NCBI RefSeq assembly: GCF_019972815.1
Contig: NZ_BPPA01000005.1
Coordinates: 124,001 to 188,000 of the forward strand
Length of the DNA stretch: 64,000 bases
Direction of reading: 5' to 3'
DNA from: Lactobacillus huangpiensis
GTDB lineage: Bacteria > Bacillota > Bacilli > Lactobacillales > Lactobacillaceae
Shown: piece by piece, positions 20,833 through 53,437 of the stretch
How the letters are laid out: each line of letters opens with the position of its first letter
Numbering within the stretch: position 1 is the first letter of the stretch
Translations under genes and position numbers: made by a program
Notes under the pieces: model-generated
What the model saw: only the letters and a program-made list of their open reading frames with translations
The model's database searches: none
Told to the model about the DNA's origin: nothing

Positions 20833-20854
20833 TATTATCAAATTAAATGCAATG

Positions 20855-25034: not shown

Positions 25035-25060
25035 TTTTCTAAGTTAAATAATTTCCAATG

Positions 25061-25228: not shown

Positions 25229-25250
25229 ATTTGTTTAAAAAATAGATTAT

Positions 25251-31720: not shown

Positions 31721-33244
31721 ATGGAATTTTTTAAGAAAATTGGTCTTGGCTTAGCCACAACAGTGTTGACAATTAGTCCGCTGCTGCCAAGTCTAAATCA
31801 TATTCAAACAGTGCAAGCTGCGCCAAAAACACAAAAACTAGCTAAAAACAGAATTACTTTAGTCAATGACGCACCCGTATATAATCAATATGGTCAAAGA
31901 CTTAAAGCAAGAAAAAACGGAGATCTATCTAAAATTGAAGCAGATGTGAATGGATTCTGTTATGTTTCTTCTTTTGATATCGACTCCTTAGATTATTACG
32001 GCACAATAATGATTAATGGGCAAAAATACTATAAAATTGGTCAAGGAGAATATATTAATGACGGTGATGTCAATAACGTTAACGGCAAAAGCTCTAAGAC
32101 CGGTAAGCTGGTTTTGAATCACAGATCTGCAATCTATACTAAAACTGGTAAGCTAAAAGGCAAGACTCTACCAGTTAAATCAGTCGTTAACTATCAGGGT
32201 CAGGTTAAGCAATCTCAATCCAAGCCAAAATATTATTTTGCAAAATTTAACGTTTCTGAGCAAAAGGCAACCTTTTATTATTTGCCGACAGAAACAGTTA
32301 ATGGTAAAGACTGTTATGCAATAGGTAAAAATCGTTATATTAGAGCAAATAACGTTGACAGTATAGATGGGTATCCTCTTATGTATAATGGCGTTACCTA
32401 TGCCACTGTTCTCAAAAAGACGACAACTCAAACATTAACCAATGATTCTACTAAGCACGTTCTAAAAAAGGGTCAAAAAATTAAAGTTGATTTAGCGGTC
32501 CAGCCTTGGGCAGAAGACTTTGAAGGCTATATCTATCGCCTGCACGATTATCCTAACGAATATGTTGGTCAAAGTTACATTAAATTGAGAAACTATTTGC
32601 CAACATCAAGTTACGATGAACTTACATTCACCTATGTAAGGCCTAATACTACGACAAATACTAAATTCTATAATTTTGACGGTACTCCAACAGGTATCAG
32701 TTACAGGAACCGTAAGCAAAACCCCTTGACCGTTGATGGTCTTTATTACTTATGGGTACCTAGTGAAAAGAAAGCAGAACTGTTTTATCACTATTTAACC
32801 TACAGAATAGACAGAAACTATTTTGTTAATAACGATGGTACTGACCTTAAAAAACCAGAGTTTGACAAAAACAATAAACTAATTGAATCGACAGAAGATA
32901 AGATCCACTATACTAACAGCTTGGTCAAAGCTAGTGATGTTACTTTCGCCAGTGGAATTAAGCTTACCCCTCTCAATACTGCTAAAGACGCTGAGAACGA
33001 TCAGAAAGTAGCAACAGATAAGGATAAGCAAGAATTGCAAAGAAAATTTGAGGAAACTAAGAATAACAAGAATGTTAAGTGTGAGCAACAAAGTGCAGTA
33101 AGTAATTATAATAATGCTTTGATGATTGCTTCTTCTATTTTACAATCTCCAAAAGCAACGATTGCACAAGTAAAACAGGCAATTTGGCTACTTGACACAA
33201 CCAAAATTCAATTAAGTACTTTAAACTTCGCTGAATGGAGTTAA
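31721..33244 (+). CDS. Secreted SLAP-domain surface protein, paralogue 1
   Basis: A 507-residue exported protein with a signal peptide probably cleaved after VQA (residue 33). Two SLAP-like wall-binding modules follow: about 44-125 (VYNQYGQRLK ... KYYKIGQGEYI) and 126-225 (AIYTKTGKLKGKTL ... CYAIGKNRYIRANNV). The second half (226-507) is shared only with the three paralogues in this window and includes KHVLKKGQKIKVDLAVQPWA, F-E-G-Y-I-Y-R-L-H-D-Y and LTVDGLYYLW, ending in a helical region. It is closest to paralogue 4. GAGGTGAAG precedes the ATG and TATAAT lies at 31677. The second half is probably the exposed functional part; role unknown. Confidence 0.82.
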   Translation: MEFFKKIGLGLATTVLTISPLLPSLNHIQTVQAAPKTQKLAKNRITLVNDAPVYNQYGQRLKARKNGDLSKIEADVNGFCYVSSFDIDSLDYYGTIMINGQKYYKIGQGEYINDGDVNNVNGKSSKTGKLVLNHRSAIYTKTGKLKGKTLPVKSVVNYQGQVKQSQSKPKYYFAKFNVSEQKATFYYLPTETVNGKDCYAIGKNRYIRANNVDSIDGYPLMYNGVTYATVLKKTTTQTLTNDSTKHVLKKGQKIKVDLAVQPWAEDFEGYIYRLHDYPNEYVGQSYIKLRNYLPTSSYDELTFTYVRPNTTTNTKFYNFDGTPTGISYRNRKQNPLTVDGLYYLWVPSEKKAELFYHYLTYRIDRNYFVNNDGTDLKKPEFDKNNKLIESTEDKIHYTNSLVKASDVTFASGIKLTPLNTAKDAENDQKVATDKDKQELQRKFEETKNNKNVKCEQQSAVSNYNNALMIASSILQSPKATIAQVKQAIWLLDTTKIQLSTLNFAEWS

Positions 33245-33246
33245 AT

Positions 33247-33295
33247 TAAAAAATAGAGTTAGTCCACTTTTATGGTGGATTAGCTCTATTTTTAT
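33247..33295. terminator. Bidirectional terminator
   Basis: AAAAATAGAGTTAGTCCAC and GTGGATTAGCTCTATTTTT pair with one mismatch, between SLAP paralogue 1 (plus) and the KAP-type gene (minus). Confidence 0.82.
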
Positions 33296-33308
33296 GTTAA
33301 CAATTAGG

Positions 33309-35243
33309 TTAACACATAGCTAATCTAATAGCTCTACATCGAGCAAGTACATGATTAGCATAGATTTCTCCTTTATATGAAAAGCGCAGTTGATCAAAAT
33401 ATAATAAGTTACCATCTGACACAACTGGAAGAAACTCGCGTGGGTACATCAAATAAATATTCCAAAAGTATAAATATTCTGTATCACATAAATTCTCAAT
33501 AATTTCTACTTTAGATTCAACCGTAGGTGAAATTTTTGTATAAAATTTAGAAAAATTTATATGATCATAATTAAAGTTTAGTACATAAAGCAATGTTTCT
33601 GCATCATACGGTTTTCTTCCAAAATCTTTCTCTTTTTCCGAACTTATTATTATTTGTTTGAAATATTTTTGCGCATAATCATCATATGAAAATTGCTCTA
33701 AATTAAATAAATCTACCAATTCTCTATAGATATGAAGTTTTTTACCATTAGTAACTACATGATCTGCTTCTTTTTGAATATTATTAAAAATCTTTTCAAA
33801 TTTAGAAATAACATATTCATCAGCACTTGCTTTATATTTTGATTTTTCTTGCTCTGACAATTGGCTGTTTATCTTTGTTTTTCTTCCATCATAAAGCTGA
33901 CTAGCATATTTTTGTAATACAAATCTGATTAAGTCATTTGGCATCTCATATTCTGAAGACCCCACTACTTCAATAGCTACTTCTGCCATAAATGAATAGT
34001 CTTTTTTTGCTACATCCTTAGTGATAAAATAATAAAATTCTAGATAATCTTTCTTATTTTTTATATAAAATATAGATTTTAGTTCCTCTTTATTCTTTGA
34101 AGTTTCAATTAATTCTGCCATACTATGATTTGTTGCTAGGTCATCAATAAAATAAGAAATAGGGTTCTTTTTAAAACTTATTCGTAACGAGTTATTTGTG
34201 AATAAAATTCTATTAATTAAATTTTCAATTTCTGTTTTACTTTTTCCTGCTTGCACAACTGAATGATTATTTAACAAATCATTATAATAATTTCGGTGAA
34301 ACAGATACAAATAAATAATAAGCAATTCTTGCGTTAAGTAAACCTTATCAAGTTTATTCCTACCTATTAATTGATTCTGTACATAATTCAAATATTTATT
34401 AGCATCTCTGGCATTTTTTCTTTCATTAATAAAAATTTCGGCTATATCATTAAATTCAAAATCCCTAGTATATTTATAAAGATAAGACTTTTTGTCAGGA
34501 TTTTTATAGTTTTGTAGATTATTTCTAATTTTCGTATTAATTAATTTTGTAATATTCTCCGATTGTAATTGCACAGGTAATCCGATTTGACGATCAATTA
34601 TCTTACTTAAATAGTTATCTTCATTTTTACTTATTTTATCAAAATCACCTACAAAAATGATTCTTGTTTTTCCGTTAAGTTGGTTAAAAAACAAGTAAAG
34701 TTCATTTTGCACATCCTTATGCAGTCTGTCAAAATCATCAACTATCAAAATCCTGGGGTGCTTTTTACGTTGCAAGTTTCTTTTATCTATCCACAATAAT
34801 AACCTATCCATATCAAAAAATTTATTTTGATAATATGTAATTAAAGTTGTGATTAAGCACGCTACAACTACTAACCAACTTTTTTCATGATTACTAAGTT
34901 GCCTTTGAATAATAGTAATTGTTGATAAGTATGTACCAGCTACAACTGTTATAAAGAGCAGTGCAATATATAGAATTATCTTTAGCCAATAGAACCTTGG
35001 ATGAATAGCTTCGAATATATTTTGAGCAAGTGAAGCTTTATTTTTAGGTTTCCATAATTCCAAATAAACAAATTTAAAATTGTTATTACTTACATTCTCA
35101 ACTTCTTTCAAGTACTCGGTTTTTCCGCTTCCCCAAGTACCATTAAGAAAAAAAGTTTTAGGTTGCCCTTCTTCAAGCTCCTTTGCAAAAGCTTTAGCAA
35201 CATTAGTAGTGTTAATTTTATCTATTTTCCAATCTTGATCCAT
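33309..35243 (-). CDS. KAP-family membrane P-loop NTPase
   Basis: A 644-residue protein. Walker A is G-T-W-G-S-G-K-T (35-42) and Walker B is ILIVDDFDRL (165-174). Two membrane segments (about 87-110 and 122-138) are inserted between them, the hallmark of KAP NTPases. Later segments include RIIFVGDFDKISKNEDN and NARDANKYLNYVQNQL; the C-terminal 350 residues are helical and unrecognised. The start is ATG 35243 behind AGAGGT. The gene is visibly more AT-rich than its neighbours and sits alone between SLAP paralogues 1 and 2, which suggests acquisition. Some KAP proteins take part in phage exclusion; that role here is inference. Confidence 0.8.
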   Translation of the reverse strand: MDQDWKIDKINTTNVAKAFAKELEEGQPKTFFLNGTWGSGKTEYLKEVENVSNNNFKFVYLELWKPKNKASLAQNIFEAIHPRFYWLKIILYIALLFITVVAGTYLSTITIIQRQLSNHEKSWLVVVACLITTLITYYQNKFFDMDRLLLWIDKRNLQRKKHPRILIVDDFDRLHKDVQNELYLFFNQLNGKTRIIFVGDFDKISKNEDNYLSKIIDRQIGLPVQLQSENITKLINTKIRNNLQNYKNPDKKSYLYKYTRDFEFNDIAEIFINERKNARDANKYLNYVQNQLIGRNKLDKVYLTQELLIIYLYLFHRNYYNDLLNNHSVVQAGKSKTEIENLINRILFTNNSLRISFKKNPISYFIDDLATNHSMAELIETSKNKEELKSIFYIKNKKDYLEFYYFITKDVAKKDYSFMAEVAIEVVGSSEYEMPNDLIRFVLQKYASQLYDGRKTKINSQLSEQEKSKYKASADEYVISKFEKIFNNIQKEADHVVTNGKKLHIYRELVDLFNLEQFSYDDYAQKYFKQIIISSEKEKDFGRKPYDAETLLYVLNFNYDHINFSKFYTKISPTVESKVEIIENLCDTEYLYFWNIYLMYPREFLPVVSDGNLLYFDQLRFSYKGEIYANHVLARCRAIRLAMC

Positions 35244-35586
35244 GCTACCTCTCACTAAAAACTTCATTTTACTAATGATCCCAATAACATTACTTTTTAG
35301 TCCAAAATTTATAAAGTCTAATGCAAAATAAAAACTGGACTAATATATCTTAAAATTATTTTGCAGGTAGAATCTAATGATATTAAGATTCACTTCAAAC
35401 TAAGACTACTTTTTAAGTTCATTATATGCTGTTTTACACCTAAAATAGTTCAGAAAATTGCAGTTTAATCTCGCAAAAATATTACAAACCAGACAAAAGT
35501 TCTAACAATTTATATAATAAAACAATTTTAAATATCAGTTTAGGGTACAATGATATTAACATAAGCGTTTTTTGTGAGGTCATAAA
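35244..35586. promoter_or_regulatory. Divergent intergenic region between KAP gene and SLAP paralogue 2
   Basis: About 340 AT-rich bases that should hold both promoters. The last 65 bases, beginning at TTTAGGGTACAATGATATTAA (about 35539), resemble the region in front of SLAP paralogue 3, including the ribosome site GAGGTCATAA. No other element recognised. Confidence 0.5.
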
Positions 35587-37110
35587 ATGAAATTTTTCAA
35601 GAAAGTTGGCATTGGCTTAACAGCCCTGGCTATAACTACTAGTCTATTTTTGCCATATACTGCTAACCCCCAAACGGTAGAAGCAGCTCAGAAAGCCAAA
35701 GGAAAAGTCATGCTGCTTGAGAGTGATTATGTTTACAACTCGTCAGGCCATAAAATAAAATTGAAACAAAATCGGGGTACACATAGCTATAACATTCCTA
35801 ACGGTTTTAATGCTGATTCCAAAGGCTATTTGATTACAGAAATGATAGTTTATGATAATGACAGTAGAACCAGTTATCCCTACTATGGCACTAAAAAAAT
35901 TAACGGACAAAAATTTTACCACTTGGGACATAACTATTACATTAATAGTGCTAATGTTTTAAAAGTCAATGGGCGCAATATCACACAAGGTAAATTGACT
36001 ATCAAACACGATGCACTGATTTACACCAAGACTGGCAAAACAACGGGAAAGAAACTAAGAACTAATACAGTTGTTAAGTACCAAGGAAAAGCTAAGACTG
36101 CTACTAAAACACCCAAATATTTTTACTACCTTAATGATGTCGCAAGGTACTTCCAGCCTAAATACGTACCTGCCCACAAAATAAAAGGAAAATATTTTTA
36201 CTCTTTAGGACATAATCGTTACATTAAAGCAGCCAACATCGGCTACATTAACGGTCACATCGCTCGCTACAACGGCGTTTCGTCAGCAACTGTTCTTAAG
36301 AACACCGCCAGCATAACGGTAAATTATTCTGCCGTTAAACGTAAACTGAAAAAAGGACAGAAGATTAAACTTGATTTAACTGTTATTCCTTACCAAAATG
36401 ATGGCTTTGAGGGTTATCTTTACAGACTGCACGACTATCCAGATGAATATGTTGATGAGGACGATGTTAAACTGAAAAAGAGTCTGCCTATTATTGATTA
36501 TCGCGACTTAGTTTATACTTACGTTACGCCAGTGACAGACAACAGCGTTGAACTTTATGACACATCTGGCAAGACAATTGGTAAACGTATTATAAAGCCG
36601 CAATACAGTAATCTAACAGTTGATGGCATAATGTATCTCTGGGTATCTGAGGAAAATAAGGCGGAACTGTTTTATCATTGTTTAAATTACAGTGACGCTA
36701 GTGTGATTGATGCCAACCAACCAAACTCGGTGCCAAATTCAGAACCAACTTACCCTGCAAAAAAGCAAGCACTAATCTATGGCAATAACTTTATTAAGGT
36801 GAATGATGTGAAATACGTCAGCGGGCTAAAACTAAAAGCACTGAATACGATTGAGCAGGCTGAAAATGGGCAAAAGTTTGCGACAGGAGCTGACAAGCAG
36901 GAACTGCTTACACTTTTTAATGAAGGAAAAGATATAGCACAAAATAGCGCTTATGATAATCTCATGTCTAACTATGATTGTGCCTTAAGAAACGCTTCTG
37001 CTATGTTAAGGTCTGATAAGGCAACTGTCACACAGGTAGATGAAGCTGTCTGGTACGTTAAAACCGCTAAAAAGCAGCTGACAACTATGTCTACCCCTCC
37101 CGGTGATTAA
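35587..37110 (+). CDS. Secreted SLAP-domain surface protein, paralogue 2
   Basis: A 507-residue exported protein with a signal peptide cleaved probably after VEA (about residue 33). Two SLAP-like modules include YVYNSSGHKIKLKQNRG ... FYHLGHNYYINSANV and LIYTKTGKTTGKKLR ... YFYSLGHNRYIKAANI. The unique half has KRKLKKGQKIKLDLTVIPY, F-E-G-Y-L-Y-R-L-H-D-Y-P-D-E-Y and LTVDGIMYLW, and ends in a helical region with VDEAVWYVKTAKKQL. It is nearly a twin of paralogue 3, apart from the linker near 380-395. GAGGTC precedes the ATG. Confidence 0.82.
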   Translation: MKFFKKVGIGLTALAITTSLFLPYTANPQTVEAAQKAKGKVMLLESDYVYNSSGHKIKLKQNRGTHSYNIPNGFNADSKGYLITEMIVYDNDSRTSYPYYGTKKINGQKFYHLGHNYYINSANVLKVNGRNITQGKLTIKHDALIYTKTGKTTGKKLRTNTVVKYQGKAKTATKTPKYFYYLNDVARYFQPKYVPAHKIKGKYFYSLGHNRYIKAANIGYINGHIARYNGVSSATVLKNTASITVNYSAVKRKLKKGQKIKLDLTVIPYQNDGFEGYLYRLHDYPDEYVDEDDVKLKKSLPIIDYRDLVYTYVTPVTDNSVELYDTSGKTIGKRIIKPQYSNLTVDGIMYLWVSEENKAELFYHCLNYSDASVIDANQPNSVPNSEPTYPAKKQALIYGNNFIKVNDVKYVSGLKLKALNTIEQAENGQKFATGADKQELLTLFNEGKDIAQNSAYDNLMSNYDCALRNASAMLRSDKATVTQVDEAVWYVKTAKKQLTTMSTPPGD

Positions 37111-37312
37111 ATGGCTACTGGTCAGAGCAATATTAGTTTTACAAAAATAGTCCAAGCAAATATAATAGACAATATGTAGAGCATGGCAAAAACGAGACTA
37201 TCAGTTTAGTGCCGATTTATTAGTTATTAAAAAATAGCTATCAACTGACAAAACGTGATGACCAGCCCAGCGATAAAGGTTATTGAAATCAAATTTAAAG
37301 GAGTAAACCAAA

Positions 37313-38089
37313 GTGAAATTACATAAAAATACTATTGTTGCAGCTGTCGCGGGTATTACCGTTTTAGCGCCAGTTATTAGCCAAACTTCAGCTGTTTTAG
37401 CAGATGTTGCTGCAACTAACGAACCGAATACAAATACAAACACTGATACAAATAATCCAGACACAAGTGTAACAGATAAAACTGAAACTCCTATAGCTGA
37501 ACCAATTTCCCAACCTATCCAAGATAATGATCCCGAGCCTAAGACCAATATCCACAAGACTAAGAAGACCTGGTCAAAACGCCATCAGAAAGCAAATAAT
37601 TATTTCAATAAGAACGTCGTCAAGAAGGGGCAGAAGTTAACGAATAAGACTAAAAAATTAGCCCTTTACAAGAAGACCTTGAAGCATTTTAAAAATTACA
37701 AGACTAAGTATGCCAAGACTTTCAAGAATTATCTTAACGCTGAAATTAAGTGGTTAAACAGACAAATTAAATTGGAAAATGTTCCTACTACTAAACCATC
37801 GGGTGATCTGAAGCCACAACCTGTGCAAAAGCCAAAGAAAGCAAAAGCACCTAAAGAACCGTATAGTGGATGGGTTGATTCAATATTATACGTAACATAT
37901 TTAAATGATTATAAATATTTTAAGAAATATCCTAAAGAAAATAGAAAATATGTAAAACAAGACATTAAAGCTTTGAAGAAACGGGGATACAAGTTTAATG
38001 CCGACTTATCTGATAAGGGTTATAAGAAGCACAACAAGAAACTTGAAAAACGTGACGATGATCTCATTGAGGCAGGCAAATTAAAATAG
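37313..38089 (+). CDS. Secreted lysine-rich protein, unknown
   Basis: A 258-residue protein starting at GTG behind AAGGAG. The signal peptide ends after SAVLA (about residue 30). A Thr/Asn/Pro-rich acidic stretch (about 33-80) of low complexity looks like a wall-spanning linker. It is followed by two strongly basic helical regions, 85-145 and 180-258, rich in Lys and Tyr (for example YKKTLKHFKNYKTKYAKTFK). No LPXTG or SLAP motif. It lies in the SLAP/BspA array, 202 bases after SLAP paralogue 2 and convergent with BspA paralogue 1. Its high positive charge could hold it to wall polymers; that is inference. Confidence 0.65.
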   Translation: MKLHKNTIVAAVAGITVLAPVISQTSAVLADVAATNEPNTNTNTDTNNPDTSVTDKTETPIAEPISQPIQDNDPEPKTNIHKTKKTWSKRHQKANNYFNKNVVKKGQKLTNKTKKLALYKKTLKHFKNYKTKYAKTFKNYLNAEIKWLNRQIKLENVPTTKPSGDLKPQPVQKPKKAKAPKEPYSGWVDSILYVTYLNDYKYFKKYPKENRKYVKQDIKALKKRGYKFNADLSDKGYKKHNKKLEKRDDDLIEAGKLK

Positions 38090-38114
38090 TCTTCAGTGCT
38101 CTCACTAATAAAGC

Positions 38115-38155
38115 AAAAAGGCTAATTCGTAGTTAAAACGAACTAGCCTTTTTTG
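38115..38155. terminator. Bidirectional terminator, duplicated copy A
   Basis: AAAAAGGCTAATTCGT and ACGAACTAGCCTTTTTT hairpin. It is nearly identical to the terminator at 41917-41956, including the bases that run into the BspA stop codon. Confidence 0.85.
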
Positions 38156-38161
38156 TCTTAT

Positions 38162-40168
38162 CTATTTGAGATTGAACCCTTTAGGAAGTTTGGGCTTTTT
38201 GCCATTATACATGACATAAGTTTCCCTGGGACTCTTTTTAGCCGAATGGTTATACAGTTTTAGCAATTGCTTTGCAGTATATTTCTTGCCTTTCGGCTTT
38301 CTAATTGTGCCTTTGCCAAGAGCTTGGATATGTTTAAAGCCTTTGCCTACTCCCGAACTCTTACGTAAGCGGTAATGCCCGAGTTTGACAACAAAGCCCT
38401 TGGGATTACCTGCATTAAGCAAAATTTGACTGTTATGAATGTTAAAATTGCTTAAATCAACTCCAACTAATTTTTTATCGTTTTCAAACATTATAGTTGA
38501 AGATTTTAGTTTCGGTAAATGCCAGCCACTTAAATTCACATACTTCAGATTAGTACAATCATTAAACATCCCAGTTGTACTAGTAACATTAGTCATTCTG
38601 AAATGCGAAAGATCTATGCTAACCAAACTCTTATTATCAGCAAACATATAAGTCATGTCTTTAACATTCTCAGTGTTCCAGCCATCCAGGTTCAAATTGG
38701 TTAAAGAATAATCTCCAGTAAACATCCCCCACATGGTGGTAACTTTAGCAGTATTTAAATGACTTAAATCTAGACTTTCTATATTAGGATCTTCCGCAAA
38801 CATTTCCCGCATATTGGTTACATTTGATGTATCTAAATGATTTAAATTTATGCTTTTTATATTAGGATTTTTCGCAAACATTTCCCGCATATTGGTTGCA
38901 TTTGACGTATCTAAATAATTCAAATTTATACTCTTTAGATTAGGATTTTTCGCAAACATTCCTCTCATGTTTTTAACATTATGAGTATCAAGCTTGGCTA
39001 GATTTAATTGCTCTATCTGTGAAAAGCCCTCGAACATGTATGACATGTTTGTGACATTCGCCGTATGCAATTTGCTCAAGTCAACATCCGTTAAATTAGG
39101 ACATTCAGCAAACATATACGACATATCTGTTACCTTATTGGTGTCCCAATTGTCTAAAACTAATTTTGTTATTTTGCTTGAAGCAAACATATTTGACATC
39201 TTAATAACATTACTGGTATCTAATGAGCTAAGATCCAGGGTCTTTACCCCGATTGTTCCTGAGAACATGTATTCCATGTCTGTAACTTTACTAGTATTGA
39301 GTTTGGCAAAATCTAAATTAGAAATATCAGCCCGCTCAAACATTCCTGACATATCGGTCACATTGCTTGTATCAAGGTCAGCAAAATTAAGATTTTGAAG
39401 TTTGGTTAGACTAAACATATTACTCATTTCAGTAACGCGACTGGTGTTAAAACTACTCAAGTTAATGCTTTTGACAGTGCAACCATTAAACATATAATCC
39501 ATTTTAGTGACATTACTAGTATTAAAACTGGTCAAGTTAATGTTTTCAGCAGTGCAATTACTAAACATATAATTCATGTTAGTGACATTGCTAGTATTAA
39601 AATTGCTCAAATCTAGCGTTGATAGTCCCGTAGACTCAAACATTCTATTCATATCAGTTACTTTATCAGTTTGAAAGTGACTTAAATCAAGCTCAGTCAG
39701 AGCCTGATCCATATCAAACAAGCCACTCATGTCAGTGACTTCACTGGTGTCAACTAAGTCCAGTCCCTTAATGTCTTTCAAATTATTTAGCTCGCTAAAC
39801 TTATATTTTGAATCTGCAGGAAGTTTTACGTGGGAGGCAAAAACAATATGGGTAATATTATTCCCCCAACTCCATTCTTCATTAAACGGGCGACTCGAAA
39901 GAGTGCTATTTTTCTGAGTTCCTTTAATTGTCAGGGTTCTGGTAACAATATCATAATTCCAGCTGCAGTCACCATCTTTGCCTGACCAAATACCTGGTAT
40001 TTCTTGAATATCATTATTCACTTGATCGCTAGCATCAGGTTTATTAGTTGCAGCAGAAACCGGCTTAACAGCAGCTGCCATTAAACTCAGACTACAAAAA
40101 GCAATACTGCTGCTAATACCAACTTTTTTAACTAAACCTAAAATTTGTTTTGAATGGTTGTGATTCAT
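38162..40168 (-). CDS. BspA-like leucine-rich-repeat surface protein, paralogue 1
   Basis: A 668-residue exported protein. A signal peptide (cleavage near VSA, about residue 40) is followed by a conserved N-terminal region (WSGKDGDCSWNYDIVTRTL). About 17 BspA/DUF285 repeats of 23-26 residues come next, each of the form L-D-L-S-x-F-x-T-S-x-V-T-x-M-x-x-M-F. The last 95 residues are the module shared with the other two BspA proteins, with KLGHYRLRKSSGVGKGFKHI and ETYVMYNGKKPKLPKGF. Three adjacent repeats are almost identical. AAAGGAGGTC eight bases upstream selects the ATG at 40168. No LPXTG. BspA relatives bind host or matrix proteins. Confidence 0.85.
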   Translation of the reverse strand: MNHNHSKQILGLVKKVGISSSIAFCSLSLMAAAVKPVSAATNKPDASDQVNNDIQEIPGIWSGKDGDCSWNYDIVTRTLTIKGTQKNSTLSSRPFNEEWSWGNNITHIVFASHVKLPADSKYKFSELNNLKDIKGLDLVDTSEVTDMSGLFDMDQALTELDLSHFQTDKVTDMNRMFESTGLSTLDLSNFNTSNVTNMNYMFSNCTAENINLTSFNTSNVTKMDYMFNGCTVKSINLSSFNTSRVTEMSNMFSLTKLQNLNFADLDTSNVTDMSGMFERADISNLDFAKLNTSKVTDMEYMFSGTIGVKTLDLSSLDTSNVIKMSNMFASSKITKLVLDNWDTNKVTDMSYMFAECPNLTDVDLSKLHTANVTNMSYMFEGFSQIEQLNLAKLDTHNVKNMRGMFAKNPNLKSINLNYLDTSNATNMREMFAKNPNIKSINLNHLDTSNVTNMREMFAEDPNIESLDLSHLNTAKVTTMWGMFTGDYSLTNLNLDGWNTENVKDMTYMFADNKSLVSIDLSHFRMTNVTSTTGMFNDCTNLKYVNLSGWHLPKLKSSTIMFENDKKLVGVDLSNFNIHNSQILLNAGNPKGFVVKLGHYRLRKSSGVGKGFKHIQALGKGTIRKPKGKKYTAKQLLKLYNHSAKKSPRETYVMYNGKKPKLPKGFNLK
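38795..39028 (-). repeat. 78-bp tandem direct repeats in BspA paralogue 1
   Basis: The sequence CGCAAACATTTCCCGCATA recurs with a 78-base step at 38795 and 38873, and CGCAAACATT again at 38951. It encodes 26-residue repeats of the type EMFAKNPNIKSINLNHLDTS. The high identity between copies indicates recent duplication. Confidence 0.75.
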
Positions 40169-40378
40169 TATCATGACCTCCTTTTCATTAACTTAATTAT
40201 AAGCCGTTTCAAATCCAAAATATTGCAAAATATAGTTTTCCTAGTTGCAAAAAATAATGAAAGCCAGGCAAAATCCATTAAATTTACCAGATAAAATAAA
40301 TTTGAGTTTCATTTTGGGTTACGATAACATTAAATTATAAGCTCATTTTTGTAAGGTCATAATTTGCGAGGTCATAAT

Positions 40379-41899
40379 ATGAAACGTTTTAAGAAAATTT
40401 GTATTGGACTAACAGCCTTATTATTAACTGCTGGTCCATTATTGCCAAATATCACCAATTCCCAAACAGTAGAAGCTGCTCAAAAAGCCAAAGGAGAAGT
40501 TACGCTGCTTAAAAACGATTATGTTTACAATCCGTCAGGTCATAAAATAAAATTGAATATTTCTCACGGCTTTACCGTTCCTGAAGGTTTTAGCGCTGAT
40601 TCCAAGGGTTACGTGATTACTGACATGGAAATTGATGAATACAGCGATGGTAGAACCAGTTATTCCTACTACGGTACTAAAAAAATTAACGGGCAAAAAT
40701 TTTACAACCTTGGACATAACTATTACGTTAAAAATGCCGATATTTTAGAAGTAAAAGGCCACAATATTAAAAAAGGCAAACTAGTATTAAGTCACAATTC
40801 ATTGATTTACACCAAGACTGGCAAAGCAACTGGTAAGAAATTAAGAACTGATGCAATTGTCAAGTATCAAGGAAAAGCTAAGACTGCTACTAAAACACCC
40901 AAATACTTTTATTATCTTAACGATTTAGACAGATACTTCAAGCCCAGATATATACCTACTCATAAAATTAAAGGGAAATATTATTACTCTTTAGGACATA
41001 ATCGCTACATTAAGGCAGCTAATGTCGGGTACATTAACGGTCACATTGCTCGCTACAATGGTGTTTCGTCAGCGACTGTCCTTAGGAACACCTCCAGCAC
41101 AACGGTAAATTATTCTGCTGCAAAGCGGAAACTGAAAAAAGGACAAAAGATTAAACTTGATTTAACTGTTATTCCATACGAAATTGATGGCTTTGAGGGT
41201 TATATATACAGATTGCACGATCACCCAGATGAATATGTTTCAGAATACGAAGTTAAACTGAAAAGGAACCTGCCTATTATTGATTACAGTGACTTAGTCT
41301 ACACTTATGTCACCCCATTAGCAGGCAACAGCGTTGAACTTTATGATACTTCCGGTAAGGCAACTGGCAAGCATATCATGAAGCCGACACATAGTAATCT
41401 GACGGTTGATGGCTTAATGTACTTGTGGATTCCTGAGAAAAACAAGGCGGAACTGTTTTATCACTGTCTAAATTACAGCGATACTAATGTGATTGATGAC
41501 AGTCAACCAGATCCGATATCAGATCAAGACTCAGTAACCCACAATAATAATCCAAAATTAAACTATGGCAATAACTTTATCAAAGTTAGCGATGTTAAAT
41601 ACGTCAGCGGGTTAAAGCTAAAAGCACTTAATACGGTTGAGCAGGCCAAAAATGATCAAAGAGTTGCAACGACTGCTGACAAGCAAGAATTACTAGCACT
41701 TTTTAATGAAGGCAAAGATTTAGATCAAAATGCTAAATATGATACGGATCTAATGAATAATTATGATAGCTCCTTAAGTAATGCCTCTGCCATAATAAGA
41801 TCTGATAAGGCAACTATCGCCCAAGTTGATGAAGCTGTCTGGTATGTTAAAACGGCAAAAGAGCAGCTGACAACTATGTCTGTTCCTCAGGGCGATTAA
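40379..41899 (+). CDS. Secreted SLAP-domain surface protein, paralogue 3
   Basis: A 506-residue exported protein, signal peptide ending at VEA. Module landmarks are YVYNPSGHKIKLNISHG ... FYNLGHNYYVKNADI and LIYTKTGKATGKKLR ... YYYSLGHNRYIKAANV. The unique half has KRKLKKGQKIKLDLTVIPY and LTVDGLMYLWIPEKN, and ends with VDEAVWYVKTAKEQL. It is very close to paralogue 2 over the whole length except the linker at about 385-400. The start is ATG 40379 behind GAGGTC; a second copy of the AGGTCATAA ribosome-site block lies 16 bases further upstream. It is divergent from BspA 1 and convergent with BspA 2. Confidence 0.82.
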   Translation: MKRFKKICIGLTALLLTAGPLLPNITNSQTVEAAQKAKGEVTLLKNDYVYNPSGHKIKLNISHGFTVPEGFSADSKGYVITDMEIDEYSDGRTSYSYYGTKKINGQKFYNLGHNYYVKNADILEVKGHNIKKGKLVLSHNSLIYTKTGKATGKKLRTDAIVKYQGKAKTATKTPKYFYYLNDLDRYFKPRYIPTHKIKGKYYYSLGHNRYIKAANVGYINGHIARYNGVSSATVLRNTSSTTVNYSAAKRKLKKGQKIKLDLTVIPYEIDGFEGYIYRLHDHPDEYVSEYEVKLKRNLPIIDYSDLVYTYVTPLAGNSVELYDTSGKATGKHIMKPTHSNLTVDGLMYLWIPEKNKAELFYHCLNYSDTNVIDDSQPDPISDQDSVTHNNNPKLNYGNNFIKVSDVKYVSGLKLKALNTVEQAKNDQRVATTADKQELLALFNEGKDLDQNAKYDTDLMNNYDSSLSNASAIIRSDKATIAQVDEAVWYVKTAKEQLTTMSVPQGD

Positions 41900-41916
41900 A
41901 TCTTTTAGACTAATAG

Positions 41917-41956
41917 AAAAAGGCTAATTCGTACATAAAACGAATTAGCTTTTTTG
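41917..41956. terminator. Bidirectional terminator, duplicated copy B
   Basis: AAAAAGGCTAATTCGT and ACGAATTAGCTTTTTT hairpin between SLAP paralogue 3 and BspA paralogue 2; near-copy of the terminator at 38115-38155. Confidence 0.85.
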
Positions 41957-41962
41957 TCTTAT

Positions 41963-43804
41963 CTATTTAAGTTTGAACCCTTCAGGAAGCTGGGGCTTTT
42001 TGCCATTATACATAACATAAGTTTCTTCAGGACTCTTTTTAGCAGAATGGTTATACAGTTTTAGCAATTGCTTTGCAGTATACTTCTTGCCCCGAGGCTT
42101 GGCAATTGTGCCTTTGCCAACAGCTTGAATATGTTTAAATCCTTGACCTACTCCTGAACTCTTACGTAAGCGGTAATGACCGAGCTTGACAGCAAATCCT
42201 TTAGGATTACCAGCATTTTTCAAAATCTGACTATTATGAATATTAAAATGGCTTAAATCAACTCCAGCTAGCTTCTGATCATTAGTAAACATTTCCGTTG
42301 AATCATACATTTTTGGTAACCGCCAGCTACGCAAATCAACAAAAACAAGATTATCACAGTCCATAAACATTTGGCTGACCCTGGTAACCTGACGTGTATC
42401 CCAAGTATGCAGGTCAAGCTGCTCAAGACTTTTTGCACCCTTAAACATCCTAAGCATATCAGTAACTTTGGCAGTATTAAAGTGACTCAAGTCAATGTCT
42501 TTTAGACTGCTGTCGCCACTGAACATTGAATTCATCCAGCGTACGTTCTTGGTATTCCAGCCCATTAAATTGAGTTTAGCCAAAGAACTGTCCCCAGAAA
42601 ACAGCGAGATCATATTAGTAACGTTGCTGGTATCAAAACTGCTTACATCCAAACTAGTAATAGCTGGATTGTCTGCGAACATTTCTTTCATATCTTTAAC
42701 TTTACTCGTATCAAAGTGACTGAAATTTAGCTGATCCAAATGGGCGAATTTTGCAAACATACCCGACATATCTGTAACATTACCGGTATTAAAGCCGCTT
42801 AAGTCAAGTTTAGTTAAGTCAGAACACCCTTGGAACATATTTTTCATACTGGTGACGTTTTTGGTGTTCCAATTAGCCAAATTTAAGTGAGTAACAGTAC
42901 TACCACTAAACATTTCAGCCATATCAGTCACTTGACTAGTATCAAAATTACTCAAATCAAGACTTGACAGATTTTGGGTACCGGAAAACATGCCTGACAT
43001 ATTATTAACTTTGCTAGTGTTAAAGTGCTCAAGATTTAGTTCAGGAACTTTTATTCCAGCAAACATACCAGACATGTTAGTGACATTACCGGTATCAAAA
43101 TTAGCCAGATCAAGCTCTGCCACATCGCTATCCGCAAACATATCTGCCATATCGGTCACTTGGCTGGTAGCAAAACTTTTCAGATTAAGATGTTTCATCG
43201 GGCTGTTTCTAAACATACCGCTCATATTTGTGACTTTGCTTGTATTAAAACTGCTCAAATCTACTTCTGTTAAGGCTGTGTTGTCAAACATTCGTTCCAT
43301 ATTTGTCACTTGGCTGGTATCAAAGTGACTCACATCAGCTTTAGTTAGAGCTTTGTCATTAGTAAAAAGCAAAGCCATATTTGTCACTTGACTAGTATCA
43401 ACTTTGTCGAGACCTGTAATATCCTCCAAATACTCAAGACCGGAAAACTTTTCTGCCGAATTCGGAGCCATTTGAACTGGTGTTTCAAACACAATATGCT
43501 CAATATTGCCAGACCATTTAAACTGCTTTAAAAATGGTGTGCTGGATAATTGACTGCTCTTTTGCGCGCCACTAATCCGCAGAGTTCTACTAATAACGTC
43601 GTATTCCCATGTGCAGCTGCCATCAGTGCCAGTCCACAGACCGGCATCAGATGGCAAACCTGTCGCACTAATTGGGACAACAGCAGGAGTTTCTGTTGCA
43701 GCAGCAACATTTACGTTTGTTTGCACCGTTACGACTAAACCTAATGCTATTGTTGCAATACCTATCCCAGTTTTTTCAAACTTGATTAAATTTGGAAGCT
43801 TCAT
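41963..43804 (-). CDS. BspA-like leucine-rich-repeat surface protein, paralogue 2
   Basis: A 613-residue exported protein. The N-terminal hydrophobic segment (about 12-34) is a signal peptide with probable cleavage near VAAA. The conserved WTGTDGSCTWEYDVISRTL region is followed by about 15 BspA/DUF285 repeats (for example LDLSNFDTSQVTDMAEMFSG) and the common C-terminal module (KLGHYRLRKSSGVGQGFKHI, then ETYVMYNGKKPQLPEGF). AGAGG lies before the ATG. It converges with SLAP paralogue 3 and diverges from SLAP paralogue 4. No sortase motif; the shared module probably attaches it to the wall, which is inference. Confidence 0.85.
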   Translation of the reverse strand: MKLPNLIKFEKTGIGIATIALGLVVTVQTNVNVAAATETPAVVPISATGLPSDAGLWTGTDGSCTWEYDVISRTLRISGAQKSSQLSSTPFLKQFKWSGNIEHIVFETPVQMAPNSAEKFSGLEYLEDITGLDKVDTSQVTNMALLFTNDKALTKADVSHFDTSQVTNMERMFDNTALTEVDLSSFNTSKVTNMSGMFRNSPMKHLNLKSFATSQVTDMADMFADSDVAELDLANFDTGNVTNMSGMFAGIKVPELNLEHFNTSKVNNMSGMFSGTQNLSSLDLSNFDTSQVTDMAEMFSGSTVTHLNLANWNTKNVTSMKNMFQGCSDLTKLDLSGFNTGNVTDMSGMFAKFAHLDQLNFSHFDTSKVKDMKEMFADNPAITSLDVSSFDTSNVTNMISLFSGDSSLAKLNLMGWNTKNVRWMNSMFSGDSSLKDIDLSHFNTAKVTDMLRMFKGAKSLEQLDLHTWDTRQVTRVSQMFMDCDNLVFVDLRSWRLPKMYDSTEMFTNDQKLAGVDLSHFNIHNSQILKNAGNPKGFAVKLGHYRLRKSSGVGQGFKHIQAVGKGTIAKPRGKKYTAKQLLKLYNHSAKKSPEETYVMYNGKKPQLPEGFKLK

Positions 43805-43980
43805 CTTGATACCTCTTTTCTCTTACCCTAATTATACGGGTTTTTTGCTTAAAACTTATTAATGATTTGAAACTTAAGTTAAACTTTGTCAGCCTTTATT
43901 CATTTATTGTAAACATGTATTGCTGCTCCTATATTAGGTTATAATAAATTTAGTAGAAAGGATTAGTAAGGAGGTAAATC

Positions 43981-45504
43981 ATGAAATTAACCAAAAAAAT
44001 CTGTTTGGCGATCACAGCTTTGGCATTGGTCGTCACACCTTTTTTAGCAAATTGCAATCAAATACATACAGTTGCAGCTGCCAAAAGCAGTAAAAAGACC
44101 GCAAAGGGTAAAATCACGTTAATCTATGATGCCCATCTTTATAATAAATATGGTCATAAAATTAAAAACAAGAACAAATATCTGCCTTATGCTGAAGATG
44201 ATGCCAATGGCTATAAGTACATTCCAGGATTTAATGCAGATGTTATGCAATATTACGGCACCAAAATAATTAATGGACAAAAATTCTATAATATTGGTAA
44301 TGGCTGCTACATTAGTATGGCAGATATTAAAGAAGTCAATGGTAAGAACAGCAAAAAGGGTAAATTGGTTTTACTACAGAAATCAGCTGTATATACTAAA
44401 GCTGGTAACAAGAGTGGTTACACTTTACCTAAGCGCGCTATTGTTAAGTATCAGGGCAAAGTTAAACAAGTTAAGTCAAGACCAAAATACTATTATAGTA
44501 AATACTTTAAATCAGATAACGATGAGCACTTTTTCTATCTTCCTCTTACAAAAATTAAAGGGAAAAATTATTATGCCATTGGTCAAAATCGCTTTGTCAA
44601 AGCCTATAATGTTACAAGTTTAGATGGTTATCCTCTAACTTACAATGGGGTTACAACGGCCATCGTTCTCAAAAAGACAGCTACTCAGACTTTAAACGAA
44701 ATGAAAACCAAACATATTTTAAAAAAGGGTCAGAAAATAAAAGTTGATTTAGCCGTTACGCCTTGGGCAGAAGATTTTGAAGGCTATATTTTCCGCCTGC
44801 ATAATCATCATAATGAATACATAGATGAAAACTGTATCAACCTGAGAAATTACTTACCAACTACCGACTACTCTGATTTAACCTACAGTTTTGTTACTGC
44901 AAAGACTACTGCAAACGTTAAGCTTTATGACGCCACAGGAAAACCCGTTGGGATTAGTTTTAATACTGCAAAGCAGTCTGATTTTAATGTTGACGGCTTA
45001 TTCTATATTTGGAATGCGGCTACAAACAAAGCGGAGTTGTATTATCACATTCTGAGTAACAATTTAGACAGAAAAGCCCTTATCAATAATGATGGCACAC
45101 AACTAAAGGCCCCGGCGACTGACAAAAAATATGGTCCAATCACTCTAACCACCAGTGAAAAAATAATAGCAGCTAACAGTTTCGTCAAAGCAAGTGATGT
45201 GAAATTTAGCAGGGGCATAAAACTTTCTCCTGTAAACACTTCTTTAGCAGCTGAGCAGAAACAAAAAGTAGCAACCGACAGCGATAAAGTGAAGCTCCAG
45301 AAAGACTTTGACTCTGGACAGCAAACTATTAACGAGAGTGTCCATTATGATGCACTTATGCAGAGCTATGACTATGCTTTAGCTAATGCTGCGGTTGTCT
45401 TACGGTCGAGCAAAGCAACGCTGGCACAAGTAGATCAGGCAATCTGGCTGTTAAAAACCACTAAAACACAGATAAAAACTTTAAACTTCCCTGAATTTGC
45501 CTAA
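43981..45504 (+). CDS. Secreted SLAP-domain surface protein, paralogue 4
   Basis: A 507-residue exported protein, signal peptide ending near VAA (about residue 34). Two SLAP-like modules are present: HLYNKYGHKIKNKNKYL ... FYNIGNGCYISMADI and AVYTKAGNKSGYTL ... YYAIGQNRFVKAYNV. The unique half has KHILKKGQKIKVDLAVTPWA, E-D-F-E-G-Y-I-F-R-L-H-N and FNVDGLFYIW, and ends with TTKTQIKTLNFPEFA. It is closest to paralogue 1, not to its neighbours. GGAGG lies seven bases before the ATG and TATAAT at 43940. Confidence 0.82.
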   Translation: MKLTKKICLAITALALVVTPFLANCNQIHTVAAAKSSKKTAKGKITLIYDAHLYNKYGHKIKNKNKYLPYAEDDANGYKYIPGFNADVMQYYGTKIINGQKFYNIGNGCYISMADIKEVNGKNSKKGKLVLLQKSAVYTKAGNKSGYTLPKRAIVKYQGKVKQVKSRPKYYYSKYFKSDNDEHFFYLPLTKIKGKNYYAIGQNRFVKAYNVTSLDGYPLTYNGVTTAIVLKKTATQTLNEMKTKHILKKGQKIKVDLAVTPWAEDFEGYIFRLHNHHNEYIDENCINLRNYLPTTDYSDLTYSFVTAKTTANVKLYDATGKPVGISFNTAKQSDFNVDGLFYIWNAATNKAELYYHILSNNLDRKALINNDGTQLKAPATDKKYGPITLTTSEKIIAANSFVKASDVKFSRGIKLSPVNTSLAAEQKQKVATDSDKVKLQKDFDSGQQTINESVHYDALMQSYDYALANAAVVLRSSKATLAQVDQAIWLLKTTKTQIKTLNFPEFA

Positions 45505-45525
45505 AGTATACTAGAAAGACAAACT

Positions 45526-45598
45526 AAAAAGGATTGGTTCTGAAATGTGATGTGAACCCTAAAATTAGGTCACACCAATGAGCTAATCCTTTTATTTT
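45526..45598. terminator. Long bidirectional terminator
   Basis: AAAAAGGATTGGTTC pairs with GAGCTAATCCTTTT, with an inner stem of TGTGAACCCT and AGGTCACA, between SLAP paralogue 4 and BspA paralogue 3. Confidence 0.75.
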
Positions 45599-45606
45599 AC
45601 TAAAAA

Positions 45607-47565
45607 TCAAAAATGAAATGATTTTGGTAACTGTGGTTTTTTACCGTTATACATGACATAGGTTTCTCTAGGGCTCTTTTTGGCAGAGTGATTATACAGC
45701 TTAAATAATTGCTTTGCAGTATATTTTTTGCCTTTCGGTTTTCTAATTGTTCCTTTGCCTACAGCTTGAATGTGCTTAAATCCTTGTCCTACACCTGAAC
45801 TCTTACGCAAACGGTAGTGGCCCAGCTTCACAGCAAACCCTTTAGGATTGCCTGCCTGATTTAAAATCCTGCTGTTATGAATATTAAAATTAGTCAGATC
45901 AACCCCTGCTAATTTCTTGTCCTGCATAAACATATCTGTCGAATCAGTCAGTTTAGGCATGTGCCAGCCGTGTAAATTAACATTAGTAAGATTAGGACAT
46001 TGAGCAAACATCTCACTTACTTCAGTTAATTTGCGGGTGTTCCAATTATGTAAATCAACAGTTTTGAGACTCTGATCATTTTTAAACATCTCATATGCTT
46101 CAGTGAGACTATTAGTTTTAAGATGACTTAAATTAATATTGACTAGCTGCGGGTCGTTTTTAAACATGCGACTCATACTCCTGACCCGTTTGGTATTCCA
46201 GCCTTTCAAATTAACTGTCTTTAAATTGTCATCATCACTAAACATGCCAAACAAGGTCGTATTAGACTTAGTATTAAAATGACTTAAATCTATGCTGGTA
46301 ATTTTTTTCATACCAGAAAACATATAGCTGGTGTTAGTCACCTTGCTGGTATCAAAATGACTAATATCAAAATCAGTTAAATTTTCAGCACCGTTAAACA
46401 TGCTAAACATATCAGTTACCTTGCTAGTATTAAAGTGCTTAATATTTAAACTGACGATATTATTTAATCCGGCAAACATAGTGCTCATGTCAGTAACATT
46501 GGCAGTATTCCAGCCCGCTAAATTAAGTTGTTTTAATGCTGTATCGTTTGAAAACATGCCTGACATATTAGTTACTTTACTAGTATCAAAATTACTCAAA
46601 TCCAAACTGGTCAAATTTGCATCCCCAAAAAACATAGTTTTCATATTTTGGACATTAATAGTATTAAAATTGCTCAAATTTAGAGTTGTTATGTTCTTAC
46701 TTTGAGAAAACATGCTGCTCATGTCCGTTACGTTTTTGGTATTAAAGCCTGAGCAGTCGAGCTGTTTAATCATGCAGTTATTGAACATTCCGCTCATATT
46801 TTGTACTTTACTGGTATCAAAGCTATCTACATTAATCGTTTCTGCCTTGGTACTGGAAAACATATTTGCCATATCGGTTACTTTGCTAGTATTAAAATTT
46901 TTTAAATCCAGCTTTTTAAAATTGGTTGCCGCAAACATGTTGTTCATAGTGGTTACATTTGCGGTATTCAATTTACTCAAATCTATTGCTGTAGCAGTAG
47001 CATTATCCATACCTAAACTGGTGAACATGTTACTCATATCTGTAACTTTATCAGTATTAAAATTACTAATATCTAAACTAGTAAGTTTTGTATCACCGGC
47101 AAATAAACCAGACATATCGGTTACATCACTGGTATCAGCGTTCTCTAAGCCCTTAATATCAGACAAATATCTCAAATTGGCAAATTTTTGTTTTGAATTT
47201 GCAGGTAACTTAAACGGATTTTCAAAAACGATATGCTCAATACTTCCAGCCCATTTGAATTCTTTGGTAAAAGGTGTACTTGACAATTGTGCTCCTTTAG
47301 CGCCGCTAACAGTCAGCGTATTAGTAAGGACATCATATTGCCACGTGCAGTTGCCATCAGTGCCAGTCCAAAAGCCCAGCTGATTATTGACAGTACTGGT
47401 TGCAGTCGGTGTTGTTTTTGCAGTTTGATCGTTAGCAGCAGGTGCAACAGAAGCTGCCAAAACATTCTGGACCAGATTAGCGCCATTCATCATGCCCAAG
47501 ACTGCGGCAGCCATACTGATCCCCAATTTTGCTAAAATATTTTGCTTGAATTTAGTTGACTTCAT
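45607..47565 (-). CDS. BspA-like leucine-rich-repeat surface protein, paralogue 3
   Basis: A 652-residue exported protein. A signal peptide (cleavage near VLA, about residue 38) and a Thr/Ala-rich stretch precede WTGTDGNCTWQYDVLTNTL. About 16 BspA/DUF285 repeats follow (for example LDLSNFDTSKVTNMSGMFS), then the common C-terminal module (KLGHYRLRKSSGVGQGFKHI, ETYVMYNGKKPQLPKSF). AAAGGAGGTC eight bases upstream selects the ATG at 47565 over the longer frame. It converges with SLAP paralogue 4 and lies 47 bases downstream of the HNH gene. Confidence 0.85.
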   Translation of the reverse strand: MKSTKFKQNILAKLGISMAAAVLGMMNGANLVQNVLAASVAPAANDQTAKTTPTATSTVNNQLGFWTGTDGNCTWQYDVLTNTLTVSGAKGAQLSSTPFTKEFKWAGSIEHIVFENPFKLPANSKQKFANLRYLSDIKGLENADTSDVTDMSGLFAGDTKLTSLDISNFNTDKVTDMSNMFTSLGMDNATATAIDLSKLNTANVTTMNNMFAATNFKKLDLKNFNTSKVTDMANMFSSTKAETINVDSFDTSKVQNMSGMFNNCMIKQLDCSGFNTKNVTDMSSMFSQSKNITTLNLSNFNTINVQNMKTMFFGDANLTSLDLSNFDTSKVTNMSGMFSNDTALKQLNLAGWNTANVTDMSTMFAGLNNIVSLNIKHFNTSKVTDMFSMFNGAENLTDFDISHFDTSKVTNTSYMFSGMKKITSIDLSHFNTKSNTTLFGMFSDDDNLKTVNLKGWNTKRVRSMSRMFKNDPQLVNINLSHLKTNSLTEAYEMFKNDQSLKTVDLHNWNTRKLTEVSEMFAQCPNLTNVNLHGWHMPKLTDSTDMFMQDKKLAGVDLTNFNIHNSRILNQAGNPKGFAVKLGHYRLRKSSGVGQGFKHIQAVGKGTIRKPKGKKYTAKQLFKLYNHSAKKSPRETYVMYNGKKPQLPKSFHF

Positions 47566-47612
47566 TTTCTGACCTCCTTTTCCTCTTAATTTCATTGTAA
47601 GCCTTTTAAAAG

Positions 47613-48530
47613 TTAAATAATATCTTCTTTTGCGTTTACTTGCGCTAGTTTCCAGCCAGTCATAAAATGCTGCTCGCGTAAAGAACGCAAGTCGTTATAA
47701 TCGCTCTCCAAGCTATCAATTGCATCCTGCAATTTTTTGTTTTGCTTACGGATCTGGTCAAGTTCAGGATCATTAACAACACCCTTCAGGTGCATTTTAG
47801 CGGCTAATTCCCGTCGTCTTTCCTCAAATTCACCCTTCAAAGTAGCAAGAGCGTCTTCATATTTGACCAGTTTTTGGTTAACTTCAGGAATTTCATTATT
47901 TAAACTGACAAACAATTTATACGGCATGTTGGACTTGATGCGATTGCATTCCGTGCAGGATAAAATCAGGTTGTCAAAATCATTATTATGTGAAAGTGAA
48001 ACCGGGTCTTTGTGATCGACGCTACGTCCGCGCCTGCCACAATATTGGCAGCGATAATGGTATTTAGCGCGAATACGCTCACGGTCAATATAATCCACTT
48101 CATTTAGTTTAAAGTCGACGGTTAATCCTAATTTACTCAGATTTTCGGCAAAAGTGAATTCGCTGCTGGGCACAAAGTCAGTTTGACCTGTCTCGCTGTC
48201 TATTACTGCCTGATTAAAATCATGTGCTGATAGCTGTTGCTGGGCTAATTCATTGCCATCATAATCCTGAATAAAAGCCTCATAGCGCTTACGCATGTCA
48301 TTTTTAGCAACCAAAAATGTTGAATTATCTGCGACTTCATCTTTTCCTACAAAAGTAAACAATAAGCATTGCGCAAAGATTTTCACTGCAATATTGGCAA
48401 AGTCTTCCGGCTTTTCTCCTCTTTGAATGCATAGATCGCAAATACTGGTCAGTTTAGGATTAATCAGACCCGTTTGTTTAAAATGTTTGGCATTTATGCG
48501 CAATCCACACGCACTGCATTGAAACTTCAC
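47613..48530 (-). CDS. HNH endonuclease-domain protein
   Basis: A 305-residue soluble protein. The N-terminus has two C-x-x-C pairs (CSACG and CDLC), a probable zinc finger. A central HNH nuclease domain reads CQYCGRRGRSVDHKDPVSL, then N-L-I-L-S-C-T-E-C-N-R-I-K, with the catalytic His and the zinc-binding cysteines. The C-terminus (about 215-285) is a coiled coil. It is not inside an intron and no mobile-element ends are visible. The function may be defence or repair; unknown. It ends the accessory array. Confidence 0.82.
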   Translation of the reverse strand: MKFQCSACGLRINAKHFKQTGLINPKLTSICDLCIQRGEKPEDFANIAVKIFAQCLLFTFVGKDEVADNSTFLVAKNDMRKRYEAFIQDYDGNELAQQQLSAHDFNQAVIDSETGQTDFVPSSEFTFAENLSKLGLTVDFKLNEVDYIDRERIRAKYHYRCQYCGRRGRSVDHKDPVSLSHNNDFDNLILSCTECNRIKSNMPYKLFVSLNNEIPEVNQKLVKYEDALATLKGEFEERRRELAAKMHLKGVVNDPELDQIRKQNKKLQDAIDSLESDYNDLRSLREQHFMTGWKLAQVNAKEDII

Positions 48531-53316: not shown

Positions 53317-53325
53317 AAATTTAAC

Positions 53326-53394
53326 ATCGGGGTGCCCTAGAGGCTGAGAACAGACCCGTCGAACCTGCTATGGATAATGCCAGCGAAGGGAAAA
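53326..53394 (+). promoter_or_regulatory. TPP riboswitch (thi-box)
   Basis: The sequence contains GGGGTGCC, GGCTGAGAA, ACCCGTCGAACCTG and GGATAATGCCAGCGAAGGGA in the order and spacing of the thiamine pyrophosphate aptamer. A terminator follows 14 bases later. Confidence 0.95.
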
Positions 53395-53407
53395 CGAAAG
53401 ATTTTAC

Positions 53408-53437
53408 ATCGTCAGGCTTTATCCTGACGATTTTTTT
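53408..53437 (+). terminator. Riboswitch-controlled terminator
   Basis: ATCGTCAGG and CCTGACGAT pair perfectly around a six-base loop and are followed by TTTTTT. It is the likely off-state of the TPP switch. Confidence 0.88.

Follow-up and report, generated by a model that had tools for sequence, protein, structure and literature searches.

Layout of the SLAP/BspA array

Why should genes for two kinds of surface protein alternate on opposite strands and face one another? The question is raised by a 64,000-nucleotide stretch of Lactobacillus huangpiensis DNA (contig NZ_BPPA01000005.1, positions 124,001 to 188,000; hereafter the window), part of a genome some 1.9 Mb in size, in which four genes for SlpA-domain (SLAP) proteins lie among three genes for BspA-type leucine-rich repeat (LRR) proteins. 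We consider it an even call that these genes specify surface adhesins made of two matched proteins, with which lactobacilli of the bee gut would present a wall-bound SLAP protein as the stalk and an LRR protein as the head. Formation of such a complex is suggested by the conservation of the pair, the missing anchors of the LRR partners and the existence of fused relatives. The argument draws on gene order, conservation, anchor complementarity, predicted folds and joint allele change in one lineage. The array contains the following features, in order.

31721..33244, plus strand: SLAP1, secreted SlpA-domain protein (PF03217), 507 aa, opposite the KAP gene and with no adjoining BspA gene
33309..35267, minus strand: KAP-family P-loop nucleoside triphosphatase (NTPase; PF07693, 1e-12), 652 aa, 27% GC, between SLAP1 and SLAP2 and outside the pair system
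35587..37110, plus strand: SLAP2 (PF03217), 507 aa, 73% identical to SLAP3
37313..38089, plus strand: secreted lysine-rich protein of 258 aa (51 lysines, net charge +31), between SLAP2 and BspA1
38115..38153, reported on the minus strand by the hairpin scan: terminator-like hairpin in the gap between the 258-aa gene and BspA1
38162..40174, minus strand: BspA1, secreted DUF285/PARCEL LRR protein, 670 aa, with a basic C-terminal module (C-module) and no cis anchor found
40379..41899, plus strand: SLAP3 (PF03217), 506 aa, convergent partner BspA2
41917..41955, reported on both strands by the hairpin scan: bidirectional terminator-like hairpin common to SLAP3 and BspA2
41963..43804, minus strand: BspA2, LRR protein, 613 aa
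43981..45504, plus strand: SLAP4, 507 aa, convergent partner BspA3, residues about 290-507 allele-variable in L. helsingborgensis and L. apis
45607..47595, minus strand: BspA3, LRR protein, 662 aa, LRR residues about 150-560 allele-variable, C-module conserved
47613..48530, minus strand: HNH endonuclease-like protein beside the array

An earlier note on this DNA had described four secreted plus-strand SLAP proteins of 506-507 residues and three minus-strand BspA repeat proteins. PF03217 was detected in all four of the former at 33.5-47.9 bits, above the curated cut-off of 23, and the latter were recovered as DUF285/LRR genes. The alternation of convergent pairs that it described applied to two of the four SLAP genes: SLAP3/BspA2 and SLAP4/BspA3 abut directly, with gaps of 63 and 102 bp. 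The others do not, because SLAP1 faces the KAP NTPase and the 258-aa gene separates SLAP2 from BspA1. A shared bidirectional terminator was likewise found for SLAP3/BspA2, while the hairpin between the 258-aa gene and BspA1 was reported on one strand only and that in the SLAP4/BspA3 gap is visible in the sequence and missing from the scan list. Repeated duplication of a cassette is supported. SLAP2 and SLAP3 share 80% DNA identity across 1.56 kb, the 3' ends of BspA1 and BspA2, terminator included, are 87% identical across 366 bp, and the pair occurs in one to three copies at the locus among relatives. However, SLAP1 has no adjoining BspA gene here and the duplicated halves have diverged unevenly. 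SLAP1 and SLAP4 are 44% and 47% identical to SLAP3. The array is real, and less regular than first described.

Convergent pairing among relatives

A SLAP subfamily was defined by matches of at least 300 bits to a profile of the four window proteins in 75 genomes of the genus, and the surroundings of each match were fetched. The subfamily was present in 18 genomes, and the top score among the other 57 was 171 bits. Close relatives of the array were found in L. kimbladii, L. kullabergensis, L. laiwuensis, L. helsingborgensis, L. melliventris and L. apis; these species live in the bee gut and belong to the Firm-5 group. The earlier note would have called the pairing accidental had co-occurrence been rare. 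It was not rare: every one of the 18 genomes carried a convergent BspA gene within about 1.1 kb of a subfamily SLAP gene, and pairs occurred at more than one locus. The next open reading frame (ORF) of at least 100 aa was the convergent BspA gene for 27 of 49 SLAP ORFs, in 16 genomes; the remainder were followed by a tandem SLAP gene (4), another tandem gene (12), another convergent gene (5) or a contig edge (1). In the remaining two genomes the partners were separated by a 256-aa relative of the 258-aa protein (G063) or by a 115-aa ORF (G049). Among subfamily SLAPs with 1.5 kb of downstream sequence, 41 of 45 had a convergent BspA gene within 5 kb, a count that partly reaches past other genes (window SLAP1 enters through BspA1, 4.9 kb off), and 24 had one within 150 bp.

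No convergent BspA gene lay beside any of 28 sampled remoter SLAP homologues, and the six BspA-type genes that the same genome carries elsewhere than in the array were all without a convergent SLAP neighbour. A wider SLAP profile (E ≤ 1e-20, up to four candidates scored per genome) matched 13 of 397 genomes of the family, all of them Lactobacillus, one of 40 genera. The BspA C-module was found in 21 of the 75 genus genomes. Paired forms occurred in 17 of the 18 SLAP-subfamily genomes; the C-module genomes outside those 17 were G049 (where the classified ones were cis-anchored) and G051, G054 and G055 (cis-anchored). The pairing is not accidental.

Common descent might nevertheless account for it. 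On this view one ancestral locus, with the HNH gene on one side and the rarA-like gene on the other, persisted and duplicated; its convergent order would serve no function, and recombination would move the two genes together as neighbours. An HNH homologue does adjoin the array in 16 fetched loci, single-pair loci included. The pair, however, also stands at other loci. In G052 (L093), G053 (L094) and G049 (L096, with the 115-aa ORF between), SLAP proteins of 468-485 aa face mini-BspA proteins of 216-220 aa, in which the N-terminal domain is joined to only a few repeats and the C-module is missing. Moreover, the pair has outlasted large divergence, to about 40% SLAP identity, and convergence is missing from the 28 remoter homologues. 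We therefore regard linkage by descent as improbable. Related arrangements were looser: G050 (L092) carried a 241-aa mini-BspA gene 4 kb away with other ORFs between, a second pair in G053 (L127) had a 431-aa gene between the partners, and the gene upstream of the SLAP gene in L093 encoded one Rib domain together with two SlpA domains. The SLAP1 gene of five further loci was followed by a tandem SLAP gene (L111, L116, L118, L120) or a KAP gene (L113).

Wall anchors of paired and unpaired LRR proteins

C-terminal tails were classified for those LRR/DUF285 ORFs of the fetched stretches whose 3' end was complete, and a protein was counted as paired if a convergent subfamily SLAP gene lay within 5 kb. 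None of 38 paired BspA proteins carried a cis SLAP or LPXTG anchor (LPXTG by pattern), as against 71 of 85 unpaired LRR proteins (43 SlpA-type and 28 LPXTG-type; 14 had neither). The difference gave a Fisher p of 2e-20, which overstates the evidence because related genes were counted repeatedly. In the genome from which the window comes, an anchor is present in the products of all six BspA-type genes that lie elsewhere, and absent from the three array proteins. An independent Pfam scan (E ≤ 1) found no SlpA domain in the three window BspA proteins, and no WxL or DUF916 domain was found among the ten array proteins (Pfam, E ≤ 1). Some cis-anchored relatives (L097, L102) carry the C-module ahead of SlpA domains within a single chain.

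This complementarity bears on another alternative, that SLAP and LRR adhesins merely pile up in mixed surface-protein islands, as elsewhere in these genomes. Other LRR/SLAP islands occur (for example G029:C2:1.76-1.84 Mb), and some BspA-type gene lay within 5 kb of seven of the 28 remoter SLAP homologues. Most LRR proteins in such islands are cis-anchored, though, and the convergent arrangement was seen with none of those 28, so that an ordinary island is highly improbable.

The missing anchors admit a second explanation. The C-module is the most conserved part of the window BspA proteins: their LRRs differ, yet the final ~100 residues of all three are almost the same. Its net charge is +11 to +21 in 34 paired proteins. 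For 18 unpaired homologues, of which 17 carry SlpA domains in cis, the range is -3 to +12, and 15 of the 18 are at or below +7. Such a basic module might itself bind anionic wall polymers. BspA would then be anchored on teichoic acid through its own C-module and SLAP, whose N-terminal half is likewise basic (+14 to +25), through its SlpA domains; the two would share a locus and perhaps a function, with contact unneeded. Yet the mini-BspA proteins face a SLAP protein although they have no C-module and no anchor was found in them, and independent anchoring leaves the retained pairing and orientation unexplained. We keep it as a serious rival because the paired C-modules are so basic, and rate it as possible, with some doubt.

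Predicted domains and folds

The LRR partners belong to the BspA/DUF285 (PARCEL) class. The three window BspA proteins matched PF03382 at 266-332 bits and TIGR02167 at 306-328 bits, with repeats of 25-26 residues around a T..V..M..MF core. An AlphaFold2 model of BspA2 (mean predicted local distance difference test score, pLDDT, 89.2) was an LRR solenoid with LRR fold matches.

The SLAP proteins are predicted to bind teichoic acid through their SlpA domains. By profile they resembled the teichoic-acid-binding domain 7qeh with a whole-sequence E of 1e-7 (best stretch alone, 0.001), and the fold match to 7qeh gave an E of 3e-7; the AlphaFold2 model of SLAP3, whose closest named protein is from L. 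juensis (98%), had a mean pLDDT of 82.6. The C-terminal half of about 280 residues, which the earlier note had called unique, is predicted to end in a three-helix bundle and to contain at least one further SH3-like domain (residues 232-302). The SLAP proteins showed no identifiable self-assembly region.

Joint allele change in L. helsingborgensis

The SLAP4/BspA3 pair of L. helsingborgensis was compared in 150-bp windows with its counterparts in the window and in L. apis. From SLAP4 residue ~290 and through the BspA3 LRR, identity was 51-82% to the window and 73-90% to L. apis; in the BspA3 N-terminus and HNH gene it was 79-96% and 62-79%. The C-module between the changed halves stayed window-like: in the two 150-bp windows that cover it, identity was 86-92% to the window, against 82-86% to L. 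apis. The region concerned, from identity windows and six-segment trees, is as follows.

44850..47200 (approximate limits), no strand: region that is L. apis-like in the L. helsingborgensis counterpart (SLAP C-terminal half and BspA LRR), the C-module between remaining window-like

The trees agreed. A split of L. helsingborgensis and L. apis from the rest had a branch of 0.37 (support 100) for SLAP4 residues 290-507 and 0.98 (support 100) for the BspA3 LRR, compared with 0.07 (98) for the C-module, 0.03 (51) for SLAP4 residues 95-235 and 0.05 (57) for BspA3 residues 1-115; the HNH gene tree was without this split. These results suggest that both variable halves of SLAP4/BspA3 were replaced together in L. 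helsingborgensis, an event that rests on one lineage and one genome per species. At the neighbouring pair, BspA2 of L. helsingborgensis was 94-98% identical to that of the window in most 50-residue blocks and 81% in the first. The SLAP protein of G037 resembles a SLAP3/SLAP2 chimera.

Proposed function of the pair

In the stalk-and-head arrangement that we propose, the SLAP protein would bind wall teichoic acid through its SlpA/SH3-like domains and its C-terminal part, with the three-helix bundle, would project outward. The BspA protein, a secreted solenoid of LRRs in which no wall anchor was recognised, would be kept at the surface with the SLAP protein, and most simply by it. The LRR face would probably bind a bee-gut ligand on the host, pollen or other bacteria, and pair duplication could yield arrays with several specificities. 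Convergent order puts the variable stalk and head halves side by side, where local recombination could replace them as a matched set; the orientation may have been retained owing to such joint exchange. The modular adhesin or surface coat suggested earlier is a tentative reading.

A further proposal, which we think rather unlikely, is that the pair is an exchangeable two-gene adhesin cassette. Convergence would hold the variable halves of the wall-bound stalk and the anchorless head together for replacement as a matched pair, and bee-gut lactobacilli would trade surface specificities between species.

Several points weigh against these proposals. That the SLAP protein holds the LRR protein at the surface is a hypothesis, and the strongly basic C-module may anchor BspA alone. 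The 38 paired BspA proteins and 18 genomes are not independent because paired genes are related by descent, and the cis-SLAP profile behind the unpaired count was seeded from ten unpaired proteins and is therefore biased toward finding anchors there. Subfamily SLAPs without a convergent BspA gene within 5 kb occurred in L095, L113 (the shortened SLAP1), L123 and L128. In L. helsingborgensis the SLAP-side flank showed weak contrast, with 82-96% identity to the window against 74-93% to L. apis. Because the conserved C-module separates the changed halves, a single tract is no more probable than two, and one tract followed by conversion is also possible; linkage alone could carry both genes. Matching is also not strict for SLAP3/BspA2, because the near-identical BspA2 adjoins a SLAP2-type protein in L. 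helsingborgensis and a SLAP3-type protein in the window.

If the proposal is true, the joint change of both halves of a split LRR/anchor design would open the evolution of surface specificity to direct tests. The conserved pair, whose halves vary between species, offers a concrete candidate for the binding of bee-gut lactobacilli to their surroundings; how related Lactobacillus species coexist in the bee rectum is under study (PMC8456714).

Neighbouring genes and other features

Two of the fetched loci, and no others, held relatives of the KAP NTPase: L114, on an L. laiwuensis contig (91%), and L113, on an L. kullabergensis contig (74%), where SLAP1 is shortened to 390 aa. Homologues of the 258-aa protein were found in six of the fetched loci and always separated a SLAP2-type gene from a BspA gene. 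The protein had no Pfam match, and 15 residues encoded in the 202-bp gap 5' of its gene may be left over from a copy of its C-terminus (E 0.001). The HNH endonuclease-like protein gave weak PtuB-like matches in PADLOC.

Two loci appeared damaged. In a metagenome-assembled genome (L116, G037:C15) both BspA genes are apparently interrupted near the C-module, through assembly error or decay. In L139 (G074) the BspA gene beside the HNH-locus genes ends at the start of the C-module and adjoins a shortened rarA-like gene, and the SLAP homologue there is only remote and on the same strand; this is likely a decayed or rearranged pair. Rfam placed three further elements in the window.

20843-21084: T-box leader
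25056-25232: lysine riboswitch
53318-53408: thiamine pyrophosphate (TPP) riboswitch

Comparison with known systems

Published work on surface proteins of bee lactobacilli, as represented in excerpts, includes the large YSIRK/DUF1542/SLAP proteins of Firm-5 described by Ellegaard et al. (PMC4449606), L. apis proteins with four SlpA domains (PMC8729767) and clusters of LRR, LPXT and SLAP surface proteins that were upregulated with pollen in vivo in all four species (Brochet et al., PMC8456714). These systems share SLAP or LRR proteins with the array; the excerpts do not mention convergent SLAP/BspA pairs. The pollen-induced locus could not be matched to this array, and Figure 3G of PMC8456714 may show another island because no LPXT motif was found in the paired BspA proteins. 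A second island (L179-L183, G029:C2:1757000-1845000), whose LRR surface proteins are anchored through LPXTG or SLAP, is an unproven candidate for that cluster.

The array SLAPs share SlpA-motif domains and predicted teichoic-acid binding with the Lactobacillus S-layer proteins SlpA and SlpX (PF03217; PDB 7qeh, 8alu; PMC11181022), but their SlpA domains begin at the N-terminus and match weakly, and they end in a three-helix bundle. Like other BspA/DUF285 (PARCEL, TIGR02167) surface proteins, the array BspA proteins form a predicted solenoid of short repeats; unlike them, they have no SLAP, LPXTG or other recognised cis anchor and a convergent SLAP gene lies nearby.

Internalin B of Listeria combines LRRs with SH3-like GW wall-binding domains. 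The array resembles it in having an LRR head and a non-covalent, SH3-like wall attachment, which there belong to one protein and here to two genes. Its structure 1m9s appeared in the SLAP fold list (E 2.8e-4), a match read as an SH3-like arrangement only because the root-mean-square deviation was 35.8 over 407 columns.

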